Below, piece by piece: positions 53,101-62,469 of a stretch of DNA of 64,000 nucleotides (the first letter of the stretch is position 1; every line of letters begins with the position of its first letter). A program made the position numbers and the translations under genes. The notes beneath the pieces were generated by a model, which ran no database searches, had not been told where the DNA came from, and saw only the letters and a program-made list of their open reading frames with translations. Origin of the DNA: Panopea generosa (lineage: Eukaryota > Mollusca > Bivalvia > Adapedonta > Hiatellidae); contig CM055895.1 in the NCBI GenBank assembly GCA_029582155.1, positions 61,605,078 through 61,669,077 on the forward strand. The letters are read 5' to 3'.

Positions 53101-56100
53101 TTTTTTTATCATATATACAAATGTATAAATAACAATATTTAGCTTTCGGTGTGCATGAGAATGTAAATGACATTAATAATCACACTCCGGTTTTACCGGG
53201 TCCTTCACCAAGTTGCTCAGCAATCGTCAGAGGCTGACTTAGTTATCCCCCCATTAACATGTTCTTCACTAAGTTGCTCAGTCGTTTCTTCTTCAGGTAA
53301 ATGTGGTGTTAAATGAGACATTGTGCAATGAGACTGAACTTCGCATTTCAAACATTTATAGGGTAAAATTGTATGCGACACTCTTTACTTTTAAATGTTT
53401 GCAATATAAACTGGTTTCAATTTAATTTCATCTCGAATTACAAATAAATATCAAATTAAGAATCAAAATAACTTAATAAATGCAACATGCAGTATACAAG
53501 TAAAGCTAATGTGTAACCAATTATAAATATGCTCACCAAATTATCATAACAAGAGCTGTCAGAAGACAACAAAGCTCGCCTCTGGGTGTCTAAGTCCAAA
53601 AAGGGCCATAAGTGTGGCAAAAATGCAACCCAGAGTAATGGTTCTTGTCTGTGTGTGTGTTCCATTGATGATGGTGAACACACATGTGAAGGTTCATTCA
53701 CATCCAATGAGTGGTTACATAGATATCTTAAACTTAAATGCAACTAAAAAGTTTAACTTGGGTGTCTAAGTCCAAAAAGGGCCATTAGTGTGCCAAAATG
53801 CAACCCAGAGTTATGGTTCTTGTCTCTGTGTGTTTCACTGATGATGGTGAACACACATGCGAAGTTTCATTCATATCCAATGAGTGGTTGCATAGATATC
53901 TTACATGATAAATTGTTGTTGTTGTTGTTGTATGGTGTTTAGCATTGCTTTCAACAATTTTTCAGTCATATCGCGACGGTGTCTACTTGAGACAGTATTA
54001 TGAGCGCTGTCACACTGGAGTATCAAGCCGCAGACACATGGTATGATACCCCACCCAGTCACATTATACTGACACCGGGTCGACCAGACCTAGAACTCTC
54101 CACTAAATGCTGAGCGTTAAGCGAGGTGAAGTAAAAAAAGGGCCATAACGGTGCCAAAAGGCAACCCAGAGTTATGTTTTTTGTCTCTGTGTGTTTCAAT
54201 GATGATGGTGAACACACATGCAAAGTTTCATTCATATCCAATGGTGGTTGCATAGATATCTTACATGATAACAAAACAAAATTTAACCTGAAAAATTAAG
54301 TTGAAACTTGGCCATAAGTGTGCCAAAATGCAACCCACAGTTATGTTTTTTGTCTCTGTGTGTTTCAATGATGATGGTGAACACACATGCAAAGTTTCAT
54401 TTATATCCAATGAGTGGTTGCATAGATAATTTTTATCTTACGTGATAAAAAACTTCAACCTGAAAAATTAAGTCGAAAAAGGGCCATAACTGTGCCAAAA
54501 TGCAACACAGAGTTACGGTTCTTATCTCTGTGTGTTCCATTGATGATGATGAACACACATGTGAAGGTTCATTGGCATCCAATGAGTGGTTGCATAACTC
54601 AATGCAAAGTTTAACCTTGGTGTCTAAGTCCAAAAAGGGCCATAACTGTGCCAAAATGCAATCCAGTGTTATGGTTCTTGTCTTTGTGTGTTCCATTGAT
54701 GATGGTGAACATACATATGAAATTTCATTCACATCCAATGAGTGGTTGCATAGATATGTGAAACTTGTACGCAACTAAACGCAAAGTTAAACCTGGGTGT
54801 CTAAGTCCAAAATGGGCCATAACTGTGCCAAAATGCAATCCAGAGTTATGGTTCTTGTCTCTGTGTGTTCCATTGATGATGGTAAACACACATGCAAAGT
54901 TTCATTGACATCCAATGAGTGGTTGCATAGATATCTGAAACTTGTACGCAAAAGTTTAACCTGGGTGTCTACAAAAGACGACGCTGGGGTCATGACAACA
55001 GCTCTCCTTGGACTTCGTCCCAGCGAGCTAATAAACATCTTGCTCTTTAAGACAATGGGAATATTATGTGTAGAAATTACGTCACAACTTTGAATGGGTG
55101 AACAAACATGGCAAACTTACCTTGGAGATACATGTGACTTTTTCTTTTGTGAAGATGTCCTCATAGTGTTGTACAGTAGCATCATACTCCCTATTCTTTT
55201 TGTCAAGATCCTTCACAAACACACACACCTCCCTGGTGCTGAAGTGTATGGAGTGTGGCAGTGACCTGCAAAGAGAAGAAAACAATTAAACAATGTACAA
55301 ATGTATACAAATTTCCCTGGTGCTGAAGTGTATGGAGTGTGGCAGTGACCTGCAAAGAGAAGAAAACAATTAAACAATGTAAAAATGTATACAAATTTCC
55401 CGGGTGCTGAAGTGTATGAAGTGTGGCAACAACCTGCAAACAGAAACAATGTACACAAATATACAAATCTCCCTGGTGCTGAAGTGTACGGAGTGTGGCA
55501 ACAACCTGCACACACAAACAATAAAACAGTGTACACAAATATACACATCTCCCTGATGCTGAAGTGTACGGAGTGTGGCAACAACCTGCACACACAAACA
55601 ATTAAACAATGTACACAAATATACAAATCTCCCTGATGCTGAAAGGTACGGAGTGTGGTAACAACCTGCACACACAAACAATTAGACAACATACACAAAT
55701 ATACAAATCTCCCTGGTGCTGAAGTGTACGGAGTGTGGCAACAACCTGCACACACAAACAATTAAACAATGTACACAAATATACAAATCTCCCTGATGCT
55801 GAAGTGTACGGAGTGTGGCAACAATCTGCAAACAGAAACAATTAAACAATGTACACAAATATACAAATTTCCCTGGTGCTGAAGTGTATGGAGTGCGGCA
55901 ACAACCTGCAAACAGAAACAATTAGACAACGTACACAAATATACACATCTCCCTGATGCTGAAGTGTATGGAGTGTGGCAACAACCTGCACACACAAACA
56001 ATAAAACAATGTACACAAATATACAAATCTCCCTGGTGCTGAAGTGTATGGAGTGTGGCAACAATCTGCAAACAGAAACAATTAAACAATGTACACAAAT

Positions 56101-59100
56101 ATACAAATCTCCCTGGTGCTGAAGTGTATGGAGTGTGGCAACAACCTGCACACACAAACAATAAAACAATGTACACAAATATACAAATCTGCCTGGTGCT
56201 GAAGTGTACAGAGTGTGGCAACAACCTGCACACACAAACAATTAAACAGTGTACACAAATATACAAATCTGCCTGGTGCTGAAGTGTACGGAGTGTGGCA
56301 ACAACCTGCACACACAAACAATTAAACAGTGTACACAAATATACAAATCTCCCTGATGCTGAAGTGTACGGAGTGTGGCAACAACCTGCACACACAAACA
56401 ATTAAACAATGTACACAAATATACTAATCTCCCTGGTGCTGAAGTGTACAGAGTGTGGCAACAACCTGCAAACAGAAACAATTAGACAATATACACAAAT
56501 TACTATACAAATCTTCCTGGTGCTGAAGTGTTTGCAGGAAAGTGTAAGCTGTAATAGTGTTAAACTATACTATCATATTCAATATCTCTTCTCTTAAAAC
56601 TGCCTGTTTTTGGGGTATGTTTTTGAGTGTAAGATGTAACACAGAGCCCCAGATAACTGTTAATGCTGATGAGTAATTACTCATCAAAATCAGAATAGAG
56701 GAGTATACATGAGTTTTTCAGAATAGTGATGAGTATTGCATATATGTTATTCAACCTAACCCATGTTAAGCTGTAGCCTACAGTGGGGAGGTACTATAAT
56801 GGCCCCTTAGAGCATGTGGTTGTTGAATACAGACCAAATTTGGTTGTAAATATAAAACTAATATAAAACTAACATGATTGGCTGCTTAACACAAATGCCT
56901 GCGCAACAGAGGTAATTGCAAACTCCTCTTAAATTGCTAGGGACTTTTTGTGTTTAGCTGTTCAAATGAACATCAAACTTTCCATTTTGCCTTTTATATT
57001 TTATCAGTCATTATGCTGCTCTATCTCTGGATTTCTTACAGACCTTTGCTGAGTAGTTACATTAGCAGAAACATCATCTTTTGGTGAAAAATGAACTTAA
57101 TTTAGTATTTTCTTATCAAATATGTAAAAAGCAATGCATAATGATTGAAATAAGTGCATTTAAACACCTTAAGATTTCACAATTACAAACTCCACATGCT
57201 CCATTTCCCTGCAGCCAAAAAATTGCCGGGCTATCTGGAACCCAGCCAGGTTTAAGTATCAATGATAAATCAAACCTCTTAACAACATTGTTTATTAATT
57301 GCACCGACTGGATTATCATTCTAACTGGTAAAATTAATTACTGAAATGAGTTAAATTGAAACCATTTAGCTATTTTTATATATACTGATAAGACAATAAA
57401 TAAGTGCAATGAAGATAGATTTTCAGAGAATGTAACTTATTTACGTATATAAAAATTGATTTAAGTGTAAGACTTGTTGCTTAAGCATAATTGATACACA
57501 TGTAAAACAACTAGAATGCGTAGCCATCAATTTTTAATGCGTCATATAGGCAAATACAAATACGCATCTTATCTGGGGCTCTGTAATAACTGTACAATCA
57601 TGTTTAATATTTTTCTCTCAAACCTTACAACTGTCTTATGTTTAATTTAAACTTATTTATTTTACTTTGATTGTGAAACAACTTTAAAAAATTAAGTCCT
57701 CCTGGGTAGATCCAGTTCTAAGCACATGCAAGAAAAGTGTCTTGCTCAGGGACACCATAGCTGTGGCAGAGAATCAAGCCCATGACCCTCTGATCATGGG
57801 GCTGATGCTCTCTCTACCACATACAGGAAAAGTGTCTTGCTCAGGACACCACACATAGCCATGGCAGAGAATCAAATCCATGGCCCTCTGATCATGGGGC
57901 TGATGCTCTCTCTACCACTGGACCGCGTACTCCACAATATTTCTTCTCTCATATGTTAAAACCGTCTTATATTTGAGTATGTTCTTGAGTGTAAGCTGTA
58001 GTACTAATCATGTTTAATATCTAAATGAAATTATGTCCACTTTTAATCCTTGTATTCATATCCTATAAACATATTACCATGCGAAATAAATATTGTCATA
58101 TTTGTCTCAAACCTTACAATGGAATAGTCTTGTGTTTAAGTTTGGGTATATTCTTGAGTGTAAGCTGTAAATCAATCTTGTCTGGCTGATCCACAATGTT
58201 GACAGACTTGTCCTTCATCTTCATCAGGGCCAGGAGCGCCTCTACACCCTTCTCAACCTGAAAAATATACATAACAAAACCTTTCAAACATTTTCAAATT
58301 CATTTCACAAGATATGACTTGCATCTGAAAATCATGAATGGGTGCAGTTAGATTCTATACAGTATGGATGCAACAAACCAAGATTCTTGTGGAATGAGAT
58401 TATCCAGATAATTTTATGCAGAGCTTTTGGCAAAAAAATTGTTTTGTTATATCCAAACTCGTAAAGTCTGTATAACTGCACCCATTCATGTATTTAAATT
58501 TAAATGTAAGTAAAAGTGGTGTTCCTGTATTCATCTGTAATTCAAAACCATGAAAGATACTTATAACCACACATGTGGAGCAAACATCATTTGTGGAACT
58601 TTATGCAAACATCCTTCTAAACTTTCCATTTCTTTCAGTATCAATATACTTAAGTGTAACAGTTAACTTATCATGAAATCAATACTTACATTTTCACTAT
58701 TCTGTTATTTTATTTTTCTATTGTAGATATTGAATATTTTGACAAAATACCTTTGTTTTGGACAAAGATATTCTACATAAGCCATCTTTACAAGCACTTT
58801 GCATCATATGGTCCGACGCATGATTCAATTCTGAGAAGTCTATATATAGCCCCCAGTGGCAATAATATATCTGGTGTAAACAATTTCGCTTCATGAAAAA
58901 CATGACACTTCATGTGTGATAAACAAGACAGTTTGTCAGTGTAAATTAATTAAAAGTGATGCAGTCACAGTGTATAATTTAAGTTGTTATCATCATGTAT
59001 GAATTATTAGGTATAATTAATGTACAAAGATGTATTTATAGTTGGAAAAAAACTAACAAACTCACAAAAAAAGTGTGATTTACTTAAATATTTTTCAATC

Positions 59101-60371: not shown

Positions 60372-62469
60372 CTTTATTAACCTCCAATACTGAAGAGTTA
60401 CAAAAAACACATGAGAAAATGAAAAAGCAACATACAATTATACAAAACAATATATACATTACATTACAATACAATACAATATATCAATAAAGCAACACAC
60501 ATTTTCTCGCCCGAACACACGCACGCACATACACACACGCGCGTGCATTAATCAAAAGCATGTTAATATTACCAGAGGAAAGGCTTCAAATGGGGAAAAA
60601 AAAACAGAAGACAAAACGGAATAACGAAACGTATGAGGAGAAAATGGTAATACAAACGATCTTAAAGAATAGCAAGGACTCGTCATTCAATCCATCATGC
60701 GATGAAAATACCTTACAATAATCTTTAAACATTTTACTTGTAATTCGTCACAGATTAGAAATTGACGTAGGCCAGCGCATAGCATGGCTATTTGACGAAC
60801 ATTATTTTCGTATACGCGGATAGAATGTTTAATTATAGTTTTCCAACAGTATTTTGATGGGAAACTTCCATCCTTTAAGAAATCATCGAATATATGTTGA
60901 AGACGATATTTTGCCAATACCCTATAAATATCAGGAATGAATCCACTTTTACGATATGGCGCATCGTTATATCGGACAAGTCTATTAAGGAATATATTCT
61001 TTGCAAGAAAATGACCCTGGAGATTACACAGTTGACCAAAAAATGTCAGTTTACGGTAATCTATCTCTGATTCTATAGACCTACTGCCTACCATGCATAA
61101 AGAAACGTGAGTCCGCGTATTTGTAGAAATGCCTTGCAAAAATTTAATGCACATTCGATGACAGCGTTCCATATCTAATAACTGTGCACCATTCATGTAA
61201 TTCCATAATTCGCAACCATAAAGAGCCTTTGGAAGAACAACAGATTTATAAATATTATATGACGTTAAGGGATGTAAGCCTTGCTCATGGACACCACTAC
61301 ATACAACGCCAAAAAATGCTCTTCTTAGTTTATTTGCGGCTTCATTTATGGCCAACTCTGTATCATAATATTTATGAAAAGTAATTCCCAAATGAGTGTA
61401 TTGGTCACACTCAGCTACATGTTTGGGACCTAATCGCCATGTGCGTTTAATATTTTTAAAATCACGATAGACTTCATTAAAAACAACAACTGCGCATTTT
61501 TTTGCATTATAATCATAACGCCAGTGACAGGCATATCGGTAGCAAATGTTCATCATTTGATCTAGAGCGGACTTCGAAAGGGAGATCAAACACATATCAT
61601 CTGCGACAGTCGGGCTGGAAATATTTAAATCAAACGAGCATAGACCTAAGCCTGAATCATGCAGCTCTTTTATTAGTCCATCAATGAATAATAAATAGAG
61701 CATGGGACTTGTTACCCCACCCTGTCGGGTTCCCTGTAGAACTGGGAACCAGTCTGAATAAAACCCCTGAAATTTGACACAGCTCTCTAAATCTGAGTAT
61801 AGGCTCACGAAAGCTTTGTAAATCTGCATATCTAATTGAAGATCGTACAATTTACTAAACAAACCATCATGCCAAACCCTATCAAATGCTTTCTGTGCAT
61901 CAAGGTAACATACAAACAGCTTAGAGTCTAACTCCTTACTTAGGCAAATGCATTCCTTTACAGTGTAAGATGTCATAACACAGCCCAATTTTTTTTGAAA
62001 ACCGCATTGAAGACTGTTGAACTTTAAAGAGTTACCATCAGTATCAATTTTGTTAAGAAGTATATTTTCATACATAGCGAGAAAATAAAAATCCTCGAAC
62101 CAAGGTTTGTCTCGTACTCGATTTAGGGCATTCTACGATATATCACATGAAGTGCGTTGAAAATGGCTTTAAAACCCATTAAAAAATAATGCTTATTTAA
62201 TAGTCAGCAATTGCTCCTGAGTTCATATATGGCTCAACTCATTCAAATGATTTGTGATATAAAAAAAAATAATATATAATATAGTTTGGTTTCTTCAAAT
62301 CATGAATGCCAGTGGTGCCATACACAAAAGATGGCATTCTTATTATCTAACAAAGATAATAAAGTTTGATTTCGGCAAACAAAAATAACAATCATTTACT
62401 GCCTTATTGGTGCCAATTAATAATAATATATACCTGCGTTCTTTCAATCATTTTGTTTATTTCTATCAT
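46717..62469 (-). CDS. RSL1D1: Ribosomal L1 domain-containing protein 1 (RSL1D1-like), complete, 7 exons, 391 aa
   Basis: Seven exons join in frame (5' to 3' on the minus strand): 62434-62469, 58118-58257, 55121-55265, 49912-50060, 48264-48368, 47665-47831, 46717-47150; 1,176 nt including TAA. The product looks like RSL1D1/CSIG (yeast Cic1/Utp30 relatives), a nucleolar ribosome-biogenesis factor with a ribosomal L1 fold. Seen: VEKGVEALLAL at the N-terminus, LTLKNIPK then SLPHSIHF, a DLYLADSCVFGVLPGLLGKIFFAKK block typical of L1 domains, then EKVPGGVANIRNLYIK and AVPLYVSFG closing the domain. Residues from about 270 are a Lys/Glu-rich basic tail, as expected for a nucleolar protein. It is shorter than the human protein (490 aa), mainly in the tail. 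All splice phases agree. An in-frame Met lies six codons inside the chosen start, so translation could begin at 62451. Confidence 0.9.
47665..47831 (-). CDS. RSL1D1: RSL1D1 exon 6
   Basis: Acceptor TATTTCAG, donor TTTG|GTAAGG. It reads MAYIAHSDMSKEEIVDNTLA, then EKVPGGVANIRNLYIKSSDT and AVPLYVSF, the last helix and strand of the ribosomal L1 fold. Confidence 0.9.
48264..48368 (-). CDS. RSL1D1: RSL1D1 exon 5
   Basis: Acceptor ATTTCAG, donor CAG|GTAAAA. It reads TCPLQINLGSKDVKNEIETV then VHNSRCILQGTGSS; this corresponds to the segment before the GHVGM-like strand of the L1 domain. Phase 2 at the end. Confidence 0.85.
48441..48722 (+). mobile_element. tRNA-derived SINE, full-length copy B
   Basis: Same family as copy A: GAGCCGGGCCC start, A-box, B-box gtgagttcgaatccc (closer to consensus than copy A), the same body and a (TCAA)n tail. 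It lies in RSL1D1 intron 4, opposite to the gene. Confidence 0.87.
48795..48960 (+). mobile_element. tRNA-like SINE relic, second family
   Basis: 'gttgtgggtttgatcccctg' then 'ggcaaaatattttttctgct' and 'ggttttacccatggaagat'; the body is similar to 39,960-40,165. A 29-bp piece ('aactggttttacccatggaa' and on) is tandemly doubled at the end. Confidence 0.5.
49438..49587 (-). mobile_element. tRNA-derived SINE, copy D, partial
   Basis: A diverged tail-half on the reverse strand ('atgccattaagggctagcag', 'gaatcagtgatgagagacaa') in RSL1D1 intron 4. Confidence 0.65.
49912..50060 (-). CDS. RSL1D1: RSL1D1 exon 4
   Basis: Acceptor ATTCACAG, donor AAAAA|GTAAGA. It reads IIPIKALRTDYSMPSTKRSL then AKAYDLYLADSCVFGVLPGL and LGKIFFAKK. 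The pattern YDLxLAD..V..LLP.LLGK.FF..KK is the L1-domain signature region. Ends in phase 2. Confidence 0.9.
50466..50958 (+). repeat. 25-bp tandem repeat, about 20 copies
   Basis: Unit 'cctgtgttgtgttttcatat' plus 'ctctt', with variants such as gttgcattttcatgtctctt. It lies in RSL1D1 intron 3. Overlapping open frames of about 150-175 codons arise from it and are not genes. Confidence 0.9.
51083..51788 (-). mobile_element. Mariner-type DNA transposon relic, internally deleted
   Basis: 41-bp terminal inverted repeats (left 51083-51123, right 51748-51788) begin CGAGGGGGGA, match at 38 of 41 positions, and the right end is followed by TA. A short reverse frame ending at 51332-51334 reads FIQWCKWWQKRVDHGGEFFE then E and stop, the typical C-terminal W...K.C/V...GG.YF/FFE of mariner transposases. 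The rest of the transposase is lost. In RSL1D1 intron 3. Confidence 0.85.
51332..51418 (-). pseudogene. C-terminal remnant of mariner transposase
   Basis: About 28 codons plus TGA inside the 706-bp element: DYINIFIQWCKW then WQKRVDHGGEFFEE. A stop lies a few codons upstream, and none of the catalytic D..D..D region is present. The match to the mariner C-terminus is by recalled pattern. Confidence 0.7.
51866..52081. mobile_element. 216-bp MITE
   Basis: The ends pair over about 40 bp with mismatches: left GGCAGTCCTTAAAAAAAT...CTGTGCTCC, right GGAGCACAG...ATTTTTTTAAGGATGGCC. No ORF inside. It lies in RSL1D1 intron 3, just after the mariner relic. Confidence 0.75.
52090..53540. other. RSL1D1 intron 3, nothing recognised
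   Basis: AT-rich intron DNA without a repeat unit, inverted repeat or exon I can support. Confidence 0.5.
53552..55005 (+). repeat. ~170-bp repeat block with short terminal inverted repeats
   Basis: Starts AGAGCTGT and ends ACAGCTCT (perfect 8-bp inverted ends). Inside, 'gggccataactgtgccaaaa', 'cagagttatggttcttgtct', 'gatgatggtgaacacaca' and 'ccaatgagtggttgcataga' recur about every 160-175 bp, seven times. A ~210-bp element is nested at 53,912-54,130. In RSL1D1 intron 3. Confidence 0.75.
53912..54130 (+). mobile_element. ~210-bp interspersed element, copy 2, nested in a tandem array
   Basis: Second copy, preceded by a (GTT)n run. It interrupts the ~170-bp repeat block at 53,552-55,005, so it inserted after that block had formed. 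Confidence 0.7.
55121..55265 (-). CDS. RSL1D1: RSL1D1 exon 3
   Basis: Acceptor CTTTGCAG, donor AAG|GTAAGT. With the split codon it reads LSLPHSIHFSTREVCVFVKD and on to TKEKVTCISK, phase 0 at the end. PHSI followed by a (V/I)C(V/L)F-K-D strand matches the L1-domain start in RSL1D1. Its first ~36 nt and acceptor recur in an upstream 80-bp tandem array. Confidence 0.9.
55300..56540 (-). repeat. 80-bp tandem array derived from RSL1D1 exon 3 5' end
   Basis: About 16 direct copies, very regular (80 bp) from 55,441 on. Read on the minus strand, each unit carries a pyrimidine stretch and TGCAG acceptor, then ~36 nt matching the start of exon 3 (cacactccatacacttcagc). The two copies next to the exon keep its exact 'gtcactgcc'; the others have 'gttgttgcc'. 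Open frames of 79-182 codons across it are by-products. Confidence 0.9.
56641..57584. mobile_element. 944-bp element with 16-bp terminal inverted repeats
   Basis: ACAGAGCCCCAGATAA at the left end and its exact complement at the right end (57569-57584). TAAC occurs next to both ends, a possible target duplication. Inside is a perfect 18-bp palindrome GATGAGTAATTACTCATC (56668-56685). An 87-codon open frame at 57,081-57,344 has no recognisable domain. It splits a duplicated exon 2 fragment in RSL1D1 intron 2. Confidence 0.7.
57715..57930 (-). mobile_element. tRNA-like SINE relic, tandemly doubled
   Basis: 'aaaagtgtcttgctcaggg', 'tggcagagaatcaa' and 'ccctctgatcatggggctga' occur twice about 110 bp apart on this strand. 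Read on the reverse strand, they include a B-box-like sequence. In RSL1D1 intron 2. Confidence 0.5.
58118..58257 (-). CDS. RSL1D1: RSL1D1 exon 2
   Basis: Acceptor TTTTTCAG, donor ATT|GTAAGG. It reads VEKGVEALLALMKMKDKS then NIVDQPDKIDLQLTLKNIPK, ending in phase 2. The 3' end and donor of this exon have degenerate copies in the following intron. Confidence 0.88.
58333..58490. mobile_element. 158-bp MITE with perfect 18-bp TIRs
   Basis: CATGAATGGGTGCAGTTA at the left and its complement TAACTGCACCCATTCATG at the right. No coding capacity. It lies in RSL1D1 intron 1, next to exon 2. Confidence 0.7.
58500..60320. other. RSL1D1 intron 1, mostly unannotated
   Basis: A decayed tRNA-like SINE seems present at 59,270-59,450 ('taaggcgctgcctcatgatc', 'cttaggtcataggttttggt'). 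Otherwise AT-rich DNA without an exon. Confidence 0.4.
60323..60376. repeat. (TA)n microsatellite at the LINE 3' end
   Basis: TA runs interrupted by 'aatcttta'. On the minus strand this directly follows the LINE's AATAAAG, so it is probably the element's own 3' tail. Confidence 0.7.
60505..60548. repeat. CA-rich simple repeat
   Basis: 'cacacgcacgcacatacaca' and following bases in the LINE 3' UTR. Confidence 0.6.
60687..62075 (-). CDS. LINE reverse transcriptase fragment, 462 aa
   Basis: Reverse transcriptase of a non-LTR retrotransposon, which copies element RNA into DNA at a nicked target site. Visible motifs: CGFQKKLGC (24-32), motif A CYLDAQKAFDRVWH (56-69, catalytic Asp 59), GTRQGGVTSPMLY (115-127), catalytic ADD (158-160, written VADD rather than the usual F/Y-ADD), motif D-like YNAKKCAVV, then YTHLGITF and the LINE-type VLPKALYGCELW. 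No stop or frameshift breaks the frame, so insertion is fairly recent. The N-terminal endonuclease is absent, so the copy should be immobile on its own. Clade not assigned; CR1/L2/I-like groups are possible. Confidence 0.9.
   Translation of the reverse strand: MYENILLNKIDTDGNSLKFNSLQCGFQKKLGCVMTSYTVKECICLSKELDSKLFVCYLDAQKAFDRVWHDGLFSKLYDLQLDMQIYKAFVSLYSDLESCVKFQGFYSDWFPVLQGTRQGGVTSPMLYLLFIDGLIKELHDSGLGLCSFDLNISSPTVADDMCLISLSKSALDQMMNICYRYACHWRYDYNAKKCAVVVFNEVYRDFKNIKRTWRLGPKHVAECDQYTHLGITFHKYYDTELAINEAANKLRRAFFGVVCSGVHEQGLHPLTSYNIYKSVVLPKALYGCELWNYMNGAQLLDMERCHRMCIKFLQGISTNTRTHVSLCMVGSRSIESEIDYRKLTFFGQLCNLQGHFLAKNIFLNRLVRYNDAPYRKSGFIPDIYRVLAKYRLQHIFDDFLKDGSFPSKYCWKTIIKHSIRVYENNVRQIAMLCAGLRQFLICDELQVKCLKIIVRYFHRMMD
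62434..62469 (-). CDS. RSL1D1: RSL1D1 exon 1 (start codon)
   Basis: Encodes MIEINKMIERTQ, then donor CAG|GTATAT. An in-frame stop (TGA) lies directly upstream, so ATG at 62469 is the first possible start; the second Met is at 62451. The exon was chosen because it ends in phase 0 and runs smoothly into VEKGVEALL of exon 2. It is short, so it is the least certain exon. Confidence 0.7.

Follow-up and report, generated by a model that had tools for sequence, protein, structure and literature searches.

Copies of both splice boundaries in intron 2 of an RSL1D1 homologue of Panopea generosa

How can a gene work when one of its introns is filled with copies of a splice site, and where do such copies come from? 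The question is raised by a homologue of RSL1D1 on the minus strand of the analyzed window, a 64,000-nucleotide stretch of the genome of the bivalve Panopea generosa. About half of intron 2 of the gene consists of repeated copies of splice signals from the intron's own two ends. The decoy acceptors are near-identical, and the cell must therefore keep picking the right copy. We propose, with a probability of about 80%, that intron 2 is a two-sided minisatellite of the type named 'mirage' in amphioxus, which grew near-neutrally and is tolerated through splicing to whichever copy makes the exon shortest.

The protein encoded by the spliced exons 2 and 3 matches human RSL1D1 (PDB 8fkp_SL) with E=1.1e-5, and an exon farther downstream, near 47.8 kb, matches the Pfam family Ribosomal_L1 at 3.1e-9. 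Exons 2 and 3 have one strong genome match each, both at this locus, and a genome search with the two exons found no second copy of RSL1D1. The reading frame alone indicates that the acceptor in use is probably the one preceding position 55265. The exons flanking intron 2 are:

55121..55265, minus strand: exon 3; true acceptor before 55265, donor AAG/GTAAGT after 55121, frame open when joined to exon 2
58118..58257, minus strand: exon 2; true donor att/GTAAGG after 58118

The acceptor array

The junction array is composed of 16 TGCAG acceptors, the true site and 15 decoys, arranged in register. The first exonic bases of the decoys are located at 56465, 56385, ..., 55505, 55433 and 55349, and the true exon starts at 55265. 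In each decoy, a pyrimidine tract leads to TGCAG, after which ~52 nt are homologous to exon 3, so that the tandem copies span the intron-exon boundary at all 16 junctions. The sequence-only reading of this DNA had recognized about 16 copies of the intron 2/exon 3 junction, in agreement with this layout. It had limited the exon part of each unit to about 36 nt, which is too short, as columns 37–52 agree at 12 of 16 positions, a value reached by 1 of 20,000 shuffles. The regular 80-bp spacing that it described holds for 12 intervals, but the last three toward the exon measure 72, 84 and 84 bp. TGCAG is kept in 15/15 decoys; they were located by this string itself, and the in-register spacing leaves no full array unit without it. 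Tandem Repeats Finder (TRF) delimits the 80-bp array to 55444–56531 and calls periods of 160 and 240 at 55214–56531. The array can be divided into four parts:

55266..55349, minus strand: decoy 1, an 84-bp unit whose junction matches the true one exactly for 32 nt on the intron side and 36 nt on the exon side
55350..55433, minus strand: decoy 2, an 84-bp hybrid unit with an interior-type start and an exon-proximal-type end, 78/84 identical to the decoy 1 unit
55434..56465, minus strand: interior decoys 3 to 15, spaced by 80 bp, and by 72 bp at the exon-proximal end
56466..56540, minus strand: intronic portion of the farthest decoy, and a truncated stub (~56500–56540) at the far end of the array

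Decoy 1, the nearest to the exon, shares 68 consecutive bases with the true acceptor and is the only decoy with the exact junction GTCACTGCC. Two exon-nearest units had been credited with this junction; one is decoy 1, and the other is the real exon. The 13 interior decoys have a mean identity of 91–95% at every distance, with no drop as distance grows, and the exon-edge units differ from them in both tract and junction. The interior units are thus homogenized, with the boundary units excluded. The homogenization had been described as recent, against which stand the 19 of 80 columns that vary among the interior decoys.

Tandem arrays are difficult to assemble, and the number of units would be wrong if a shorter or longer array had been expanded or collapsed in the assembly. 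The authors of PMC3087553 describe, in the passages available, an amphioxus mirage as apparently misassembled in a genome draft, and C12 of the P. generosa genome contains near-duplicate inverted loci, possibly retained haplotypes. However, the units carry distinct substitutions, the window contains no N, and structures of the same type recur at other exons. Furthermore, the array was found at a single place in the 1.47-Gb genome in a DNA search that skipped simple and very common words. We therefore consider an assembly artefact highly improbable.

Consequences of decoy use and splice-site strength

Splicing to any of the 15 decoys would lead to a stop codon before the exon 3 donor, as had been predicted. 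The stop follows after 23 codons in 11 decoys, and after 47, 103, 103 and 126 codons in the other four. Since all 15 decoys would truncate the protein, the earlier argument that splicing has to be held to the last acceptor stands, provided that the gene works.

Splice-site strength was scored with approximate matrices. The true acceptor and decoy 1 both score 17.4, and the other 14 decoys 7.3–11.6, so that local site strength may contribute to the choice in RSL1D1. The decoy scores overlap those of four other scored acceptors of the gene (5.4–11.2), and all 15 decoys are among the 16 highest-scoring of the 168 AGs in the intron. The strength of the decoys, the identity of decoy 1 to the true site and the premature stops are compatible with regulation, in which decoys draw splicing away from the true acceptor, the resulting transcripts are degraded because of the premature stop, and the copy number tunes RSL1D1 output. 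However, the invariance of the decoy AG is not beyond chance (P ~0.58; ~0.26 for the whole TGCAG), and the copied codons show no sign of protein-level constraint, as the variant codons of the 13 interior decoys comprise five synonymous and six nonsynonymous cases. The same ratio led us to reject selection on the decoy reading frame. Similar arrays at unrelated exons, also as donors, and published mirages, which reportedly leave splicing undisturbed according to the available part of PMC3087553, likewise argue against a regulatory role. We consider the regulatory use of decoys, put forward in the sequence-only reading, unsupported and unlikely.

CAG/GT is present at 14/16 junctions, and most acceptors are thus directly followed by GT. 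The decoys could in principle serve as alternative mini-exons or in recursive splicing, but the best donor-like sites in the array score 4.5, 3.3 and 2.7, whereas three genuine donors of the gene reach 6.2, 8.2 and 12.7, the last being that of exon 3 (all from an approximate matrix). Donors inside the array that would make mini-exons were rejected because of these weak scores, and we regard this possibility as the most far-fetched of those considered. RNA structure that hides the decoy AGs was also rejected, as the true AG has a predicted accessibility of 0.01, and the decoy AGs range from 0.01 to 0.51.

Copies of the exon 2 end and arrays in other genes

Intron 2 also contains three decayed copies of the 3' end of exon 2 with its donor region, which the sequence-only reading did not describe. 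For comparison, the maximum local alignment score in 900 shuffled segments was 41.

57936..58013, minus strand: copy B, decayed exon 2 3' end and donor region; local alignment score 57, donor GT lost
57609..57648, minus strand: copy C, decayed exon 2 end; core score 47, longer alignment 57714–57609 with score 50
56642..57583, no strand assigned: 942-bp element with terminal inverted repeats, CAGAGCCCCAGATAA ... TTATCTGGGGCTCTG, between copies C and D
56567..56639, minus strand: copy D, decayed exon 2 end; alignment score 50, donor not kept
56541..56554, minus strand: stub E, possibly from the exon 2 end (TTACAGCTTACACT); score 32, within the null range, placed by position only

Copy C retains the donor gtt/GTAAGG after 57629, with a score of 5.3 compared with 6.2 for the true exon 2 donor. 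Stub E adjoins the exon 3 array. The presence of exon 2-end copies beside the exon 3 array indicates that both boundaries of intron 2 were copied. The exon 2 end together with copy B (57925–58190) matches one place only, itself, in a genome search that skipped simple and very common words, which speaks against a dispersed repeat as the source of the exon 2 copies. TRF runs on 56540–58300, with and without the 942-bp element, called no array over copies A to E; this negative says little, since the runs also missed a 98-bp duplication reported there by an earlier TRF run.

Junction arrays are not confined to RSL1D1. Local repeats overlap the match in 6 of the 50 Helicase_C exon matches examined, and four of these six, each in another gene, have clear donor-side arrays. 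One of them, in an EIF4A3-like gene (C4:69467255–69468362), has 12 copies, with CAG/GTAAGT at 10/12 donors. The reading frame is kept by the exon-proximal donor only in three of the four donor-side arrays, and by the two nearest donors in the fourth. No junction array was found in the 57 RRM matches examined, and the frequency of arrays therefore varies with gene family or sampling. Because the true RSL1D1 acceptor ties with decoy 1, to which it is identical over 68 bases, and most EIF4A3-like donors share one consensus, local strength alone cannot decide between the copies. If the genes function, the choice must depend on position or on broader context.

The copies encode the motif LPHSI, which is also present in human RSL1D1, and the exon is therefore their source. 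We hypothesize that tandem copying, probably by slippage or unequal exchange, multiplied a segment of 80–84 bp that straddles the intron 2/exon 3 junction (~28–32 nt intronic, 52 nt exonic) in the direction of the intron and gave rise to the 15 decoy acceptors. An apparently older round would have copied the exon 2 end with its donor, and these copies have since decayed and now lie apart, with other sequence between them. Homogenization would have acted on interior units and spared those at the exon edge. Splicing presumably picks the junction nearest the exon body, which gives the shortest exon, in line with exon definition of a 145-nt exon with a strong donor. The decoys would be removed with the intron, and leaked decoy use would end in a premature stop. 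Such arrays may be tolerated because splicing takes the shortest-exon copy and unused copies leave with the intron, so that the growth of minisatellites across splice junctions could be near-neutral. That the copies lie on the intron side of the junction in use is partly a matter of necessity, since any other layout would disrupt the gene and be eliminated.

We speculate, more tentatively, that junction copying is a general mutational process in this genome, that the arrays form a natural series showing the shortest-exon rule, and that array length possibly tunes RNA-processing genes such as RSL1D1 and EIF4A3. Arrays of near-identical splice sites, set apart chiefly by how far each lies from the exon body, offer a ready-made experiment on spliceosome choice. 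If common in minisatellite-rich animals, such arrays would cause annotation errors and might also make expression variable.

Comparison with known systems

The RSL1D1 structure is of a known kind, the amphioxus mirage minisatellite. Literature searches on mirages, minisatellites and amphioxus returned such arrays only in PMC3087553 and PMC3902484, as judged by title, abstract start or passage. A search combining tandem duplication, intron-exon boundary and splice site in molluscs returned no match. Among the matches listed for minisatellites, bivalves and splice sites, the titles and abstract starts mention no mirage outside amphioxus, and those listed for RSL1D1 splicing mention nothing relevant.

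Mirages are described in the amphioxus globins BflGb6 and BflGb9, Adh3, troponin C and PGBD5, in the passages available from PMC3087553 and PMC3902484. Like the RSL1D1 array, they are tandem, minisatellite-like copies of an intron-exon boundary, on the acceptor or donor side, with splice signals, and they have homogenized interiors with edge units excluded (PMC3087553). The amphioxus units are 10–160 bp long, with 3 or 6 copies in BflGb6, whereas the RSL1D1 intron has 16 acceptor copies and the decayed donor-side copies. The same passages of PMC3087553 and PMC3902484 include no case in which both ends of one intron are copied. The productive copy is used in the globin and Adh3 mirages (PMC3087553).

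The productive copy is also used in the human CBS variant 844_845ins68, in which the intron 7/exon 8 junction is duplicated, giving two candidate sites; splicing strongly favors the distal site, and the extra copy is removed (excerpts of PMC2630376). These excerpts call the sites 'donor', although at an intron/exon junction they are acceptors. Unlike the RSL1D1 array, the CBS variant is a single, polymorphic 68-bp duplicate. The human CBS VNTR c.1444_1467+7(16_21), which, judging by its name, spans a donor, differs from the RSL1D1 array in its 31-bp unit and donor-side location. It resembles the array in its 16–21 copies and in unit coordinates that run from exon into intron (excerpts of PMC2630376). 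Intron creation by tandem genomic duplication, as described in the available parts of PMC3443670 and PMC2812944, likewise reshapes introns through duplication across or near splice signals. That process makes a new intron, whereas in RSL1D1 the ends of an intron already present were copied into it, and the arrays show this as one route for intron growth.

Copied boundaries of RSL1D1 intron 2

The minus-strand gene in the Panopea generosa window is a homologue of RSL1D1. The protein encoded by spliced exons 2 and 3 matches human RSL1D1 (PDB 8fkp_SL) with an E-value of 1.1e-5, and a downstream exon at approximately 47.8 kb matches the Pfam family Ribosomal_L1 (3.1e-9). Exons were also located near 50.0 kb and 47.7 kb using tblastn with an approximate sequence of human RSL1D1 as the query. 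In the 1.474-Gb genome (39 contigs, the window being C2:61605078–61669077), exons 2 and 3 have one strong match apiece, both at this locus. The remaining eight of ten matches are weaker, and all lie inside the acceptor array of intron 2.

The acceptor array is composed of 15 extra TGCAG acceptors, or decoys, positioned 5' of exon 3 and numbered outwards from it, with spacings, read towards exon 3, of 80 bp twelve times and then of 72, 84, and 84 bp. It occupies 1275 of the 2852 bases of the intron. Each decoy acceptor is followed by exon 3 sequence, and the similarity spans about 52 nt; in columns 37–52, 12 of 16 positions are identical to exon 3, which was equalled in 1 of 20000 shuffles. Several units encode LPHSIHFSTREICIF, the human RSL1D1 counterpart of which is LPHSIRSDSEDICLF. 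Since this conserved motif is common to the decoy units and human RSL1D1, exon 3 is the source of the array. The 13 interior decoys (3–15) have a mean identity of 91–95% at every distance, and 19 of their 80 columns are variable. The units at the exon edge are of a different type from the interior ones, and decoy 2 is a hybrid.

The second boundary of intron 2 is copied too, which the sequence-only reading overlooked. Three stretches (copies B, C, and D) resemble the end of exon 2 with its donor region, with the alignment scores listed below against a maximum of 41 among 900 shuffled segments:

58118, minus strand: exon 2 end and donor (att/GTAAGG)
58013–57936, minus strand: copy B of the exon 2 end (score 57)
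57723–57918: 98-bp duplication between copies B and C
57648–57609, minus strand: copy C of the exon 2 end (score 47; 50 in a longer alignment)
56642–57583: terminal-inverted-repeat element of 942 bp, inside intron 2 and flanked by copies C and D
56639–56567, minus strand: copy D of the exon 2 end (score 50)
55265–55121, minus strand: exon 3

Among the three copies, the donor is kept in copy C only (GTT/GTAAGG). A 14-nt stub at 56554 adjoins the exon 3 array, and its alignment falls within the null range. In a DNA search, the exon 2 end and copy B have one matching place in the genome. The exon 2-end array is apparently older than the acceptor array.

Positions 1–28231 of the window are occupied by long arrays of satellite type, which have a unit of 118 bp and also higher-order periods. 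A 177-bp tandem array (54135–54934) closely follows exon 3, within intron 3, and a 481-residue open frame at 60687–62132 contains a reverse transcriptase domain (RVT_1, 3.5e-19).

Decoy fate and acceptor strength

Joining exon 2 to any of the 15 decoys places a stop ahead of the exon 3 donor, which bears out the earlier claim that decoy splicing would soon run into a stop. The stop comes after 23 codons for 11 decoys, and after 47, 103, 103, and 126 codons for the other four.

Acceptors were scored with an approximate matrix. The true acceptor and decoy 1, whose sequences agree fully over the preceding 32 nt and the following 36 nt, share the longest pyrimidine run (13) and a score of 17.4. 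The remaining 14 decoys score 7.3–11.6, and four other RSL1D1 acceptors score 11.2, 8.0, 5.4, and 5.9. The decoys are 15 of the best 16 among 168 intronic AGs. Given this ranking and the other acceptors of the gene, the 14 lower-scoring decoys are not poor acceptors. The invariance of the decoy AG does not indicate selection, because 76% of decoy columns are invariant anyway (chance P of about 0.58 for an invariant AG and 0.26 for TGCAG).

Junction arrays elsewhere in the genome

Same-strand repeats within 150 nt of exon matches were surveyed for two domains. Junction-copying repeats were found in none of the 57 RRM_1 matches tested (of 109), and repeats lie nearby in five: four are intronic arrays near the exon, two of these in near-duplicate loci, and the fifth is coding Gly-rich sequence. 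On contig C12, RRM gene clusters at 45.91–45.93 Mb and 69.30–69.33 Mb are inverted near-duplicates, about 92–98% identical in four locus pairs, with differing array lengths; either they are genuinely duplicated or one is a retained haplotype.

Fifty of the 135 Helicase_C matches were examined in three batches, with flanks as a rule of 600, 500, and 300 nt. They were hand-picked approximately in listed order, omitting mobile-element-like groups and, in later batches, also long open frames; each batch was chosen before its flanks were inspected. Repeats overlap the exon match in six of the 50, and in a seventh case (L101) an intronic array adjoins the exon. Four of the six overlaps are clear donor-side arrays:

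L093, C4:69467255–69468362, EIF4A3-like by PDB match: exon end and donor in 12 copies at 42 bp, CAG/GTAAGT in 10 of them
L075, probably SMARCAD1-like by PDB match: at least six donor copies spaced 88, 158, 88, 88, and 88 bp, all GTAATG
L071, DDX54-like: five donor copies
L102, DEAD-box helicase, PDB matches at the cut-off all DDX18: five donor copies at 64 bp, GT in four

The frame stays open with the first donor only in L093, L075, and L102, and with the first two in L071. Loci L085 and L087 (C15, 54.19 and 55.88 Mb) are near-copies of a helicase exon, 90% identical over 1196 bases. At each, an array of 38-bp, acceptor-like units runs up to the exon; it ends over the acceptor and includes very little exon sequence, and these loci are not counted as proven junction arrays.

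For comparison, at the RRM loci a local repeat overlaps 22 of 100 anchors lying outside exons, in a set that includes near-duplicate loci and has longer flanks than the Helicase_C matches. Therefore, arrays are dense near the surveyed genes but show no preference for splice junctions, which are, if anything, spared.

Probable position of the used junction and comparison with known systems

Tandem copying across a junction would spare the coding sequence if the exon-proximal junction is used, and copies could therefore accumulate inward into the intron. The exon-proximal choice would be the last acceptor or the first donor, giving the shortest exon either way. Local strength does not separate several of the copies; splicing therefore probably distinguishes them by where they lie with respect to the body of the exon, as exon definition predicts.

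The human 68-bp duplicate of an intron 7/exon 8 junction, CBS 844_845ins68, is a direct precedent for choosing one of duplicated junctions, the distal copy being reported as strongly favoured by splicing (PMC2630376). In the features that sequence can test, the RSL1D1 array qualifies as a mirage, an amphioxus minisatellite of tandem intron-exon boundary copies with splice signals. Regular splicing is reportedly undisturbed by mirages of the amphioxus globin and Adh3 genes (PMC3087553), and those of Adh and troponin C are likewise reported without interference in splicing (PMC3902484). As described for amphioxus mirages, the interior of the RSL1D1 array is homogenised and its edges are excluded (PMC3087553). 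The RSL1D1 array differs from them in copy number, in the copying of both boundaries of one intron, and in the genome in which it occurs.
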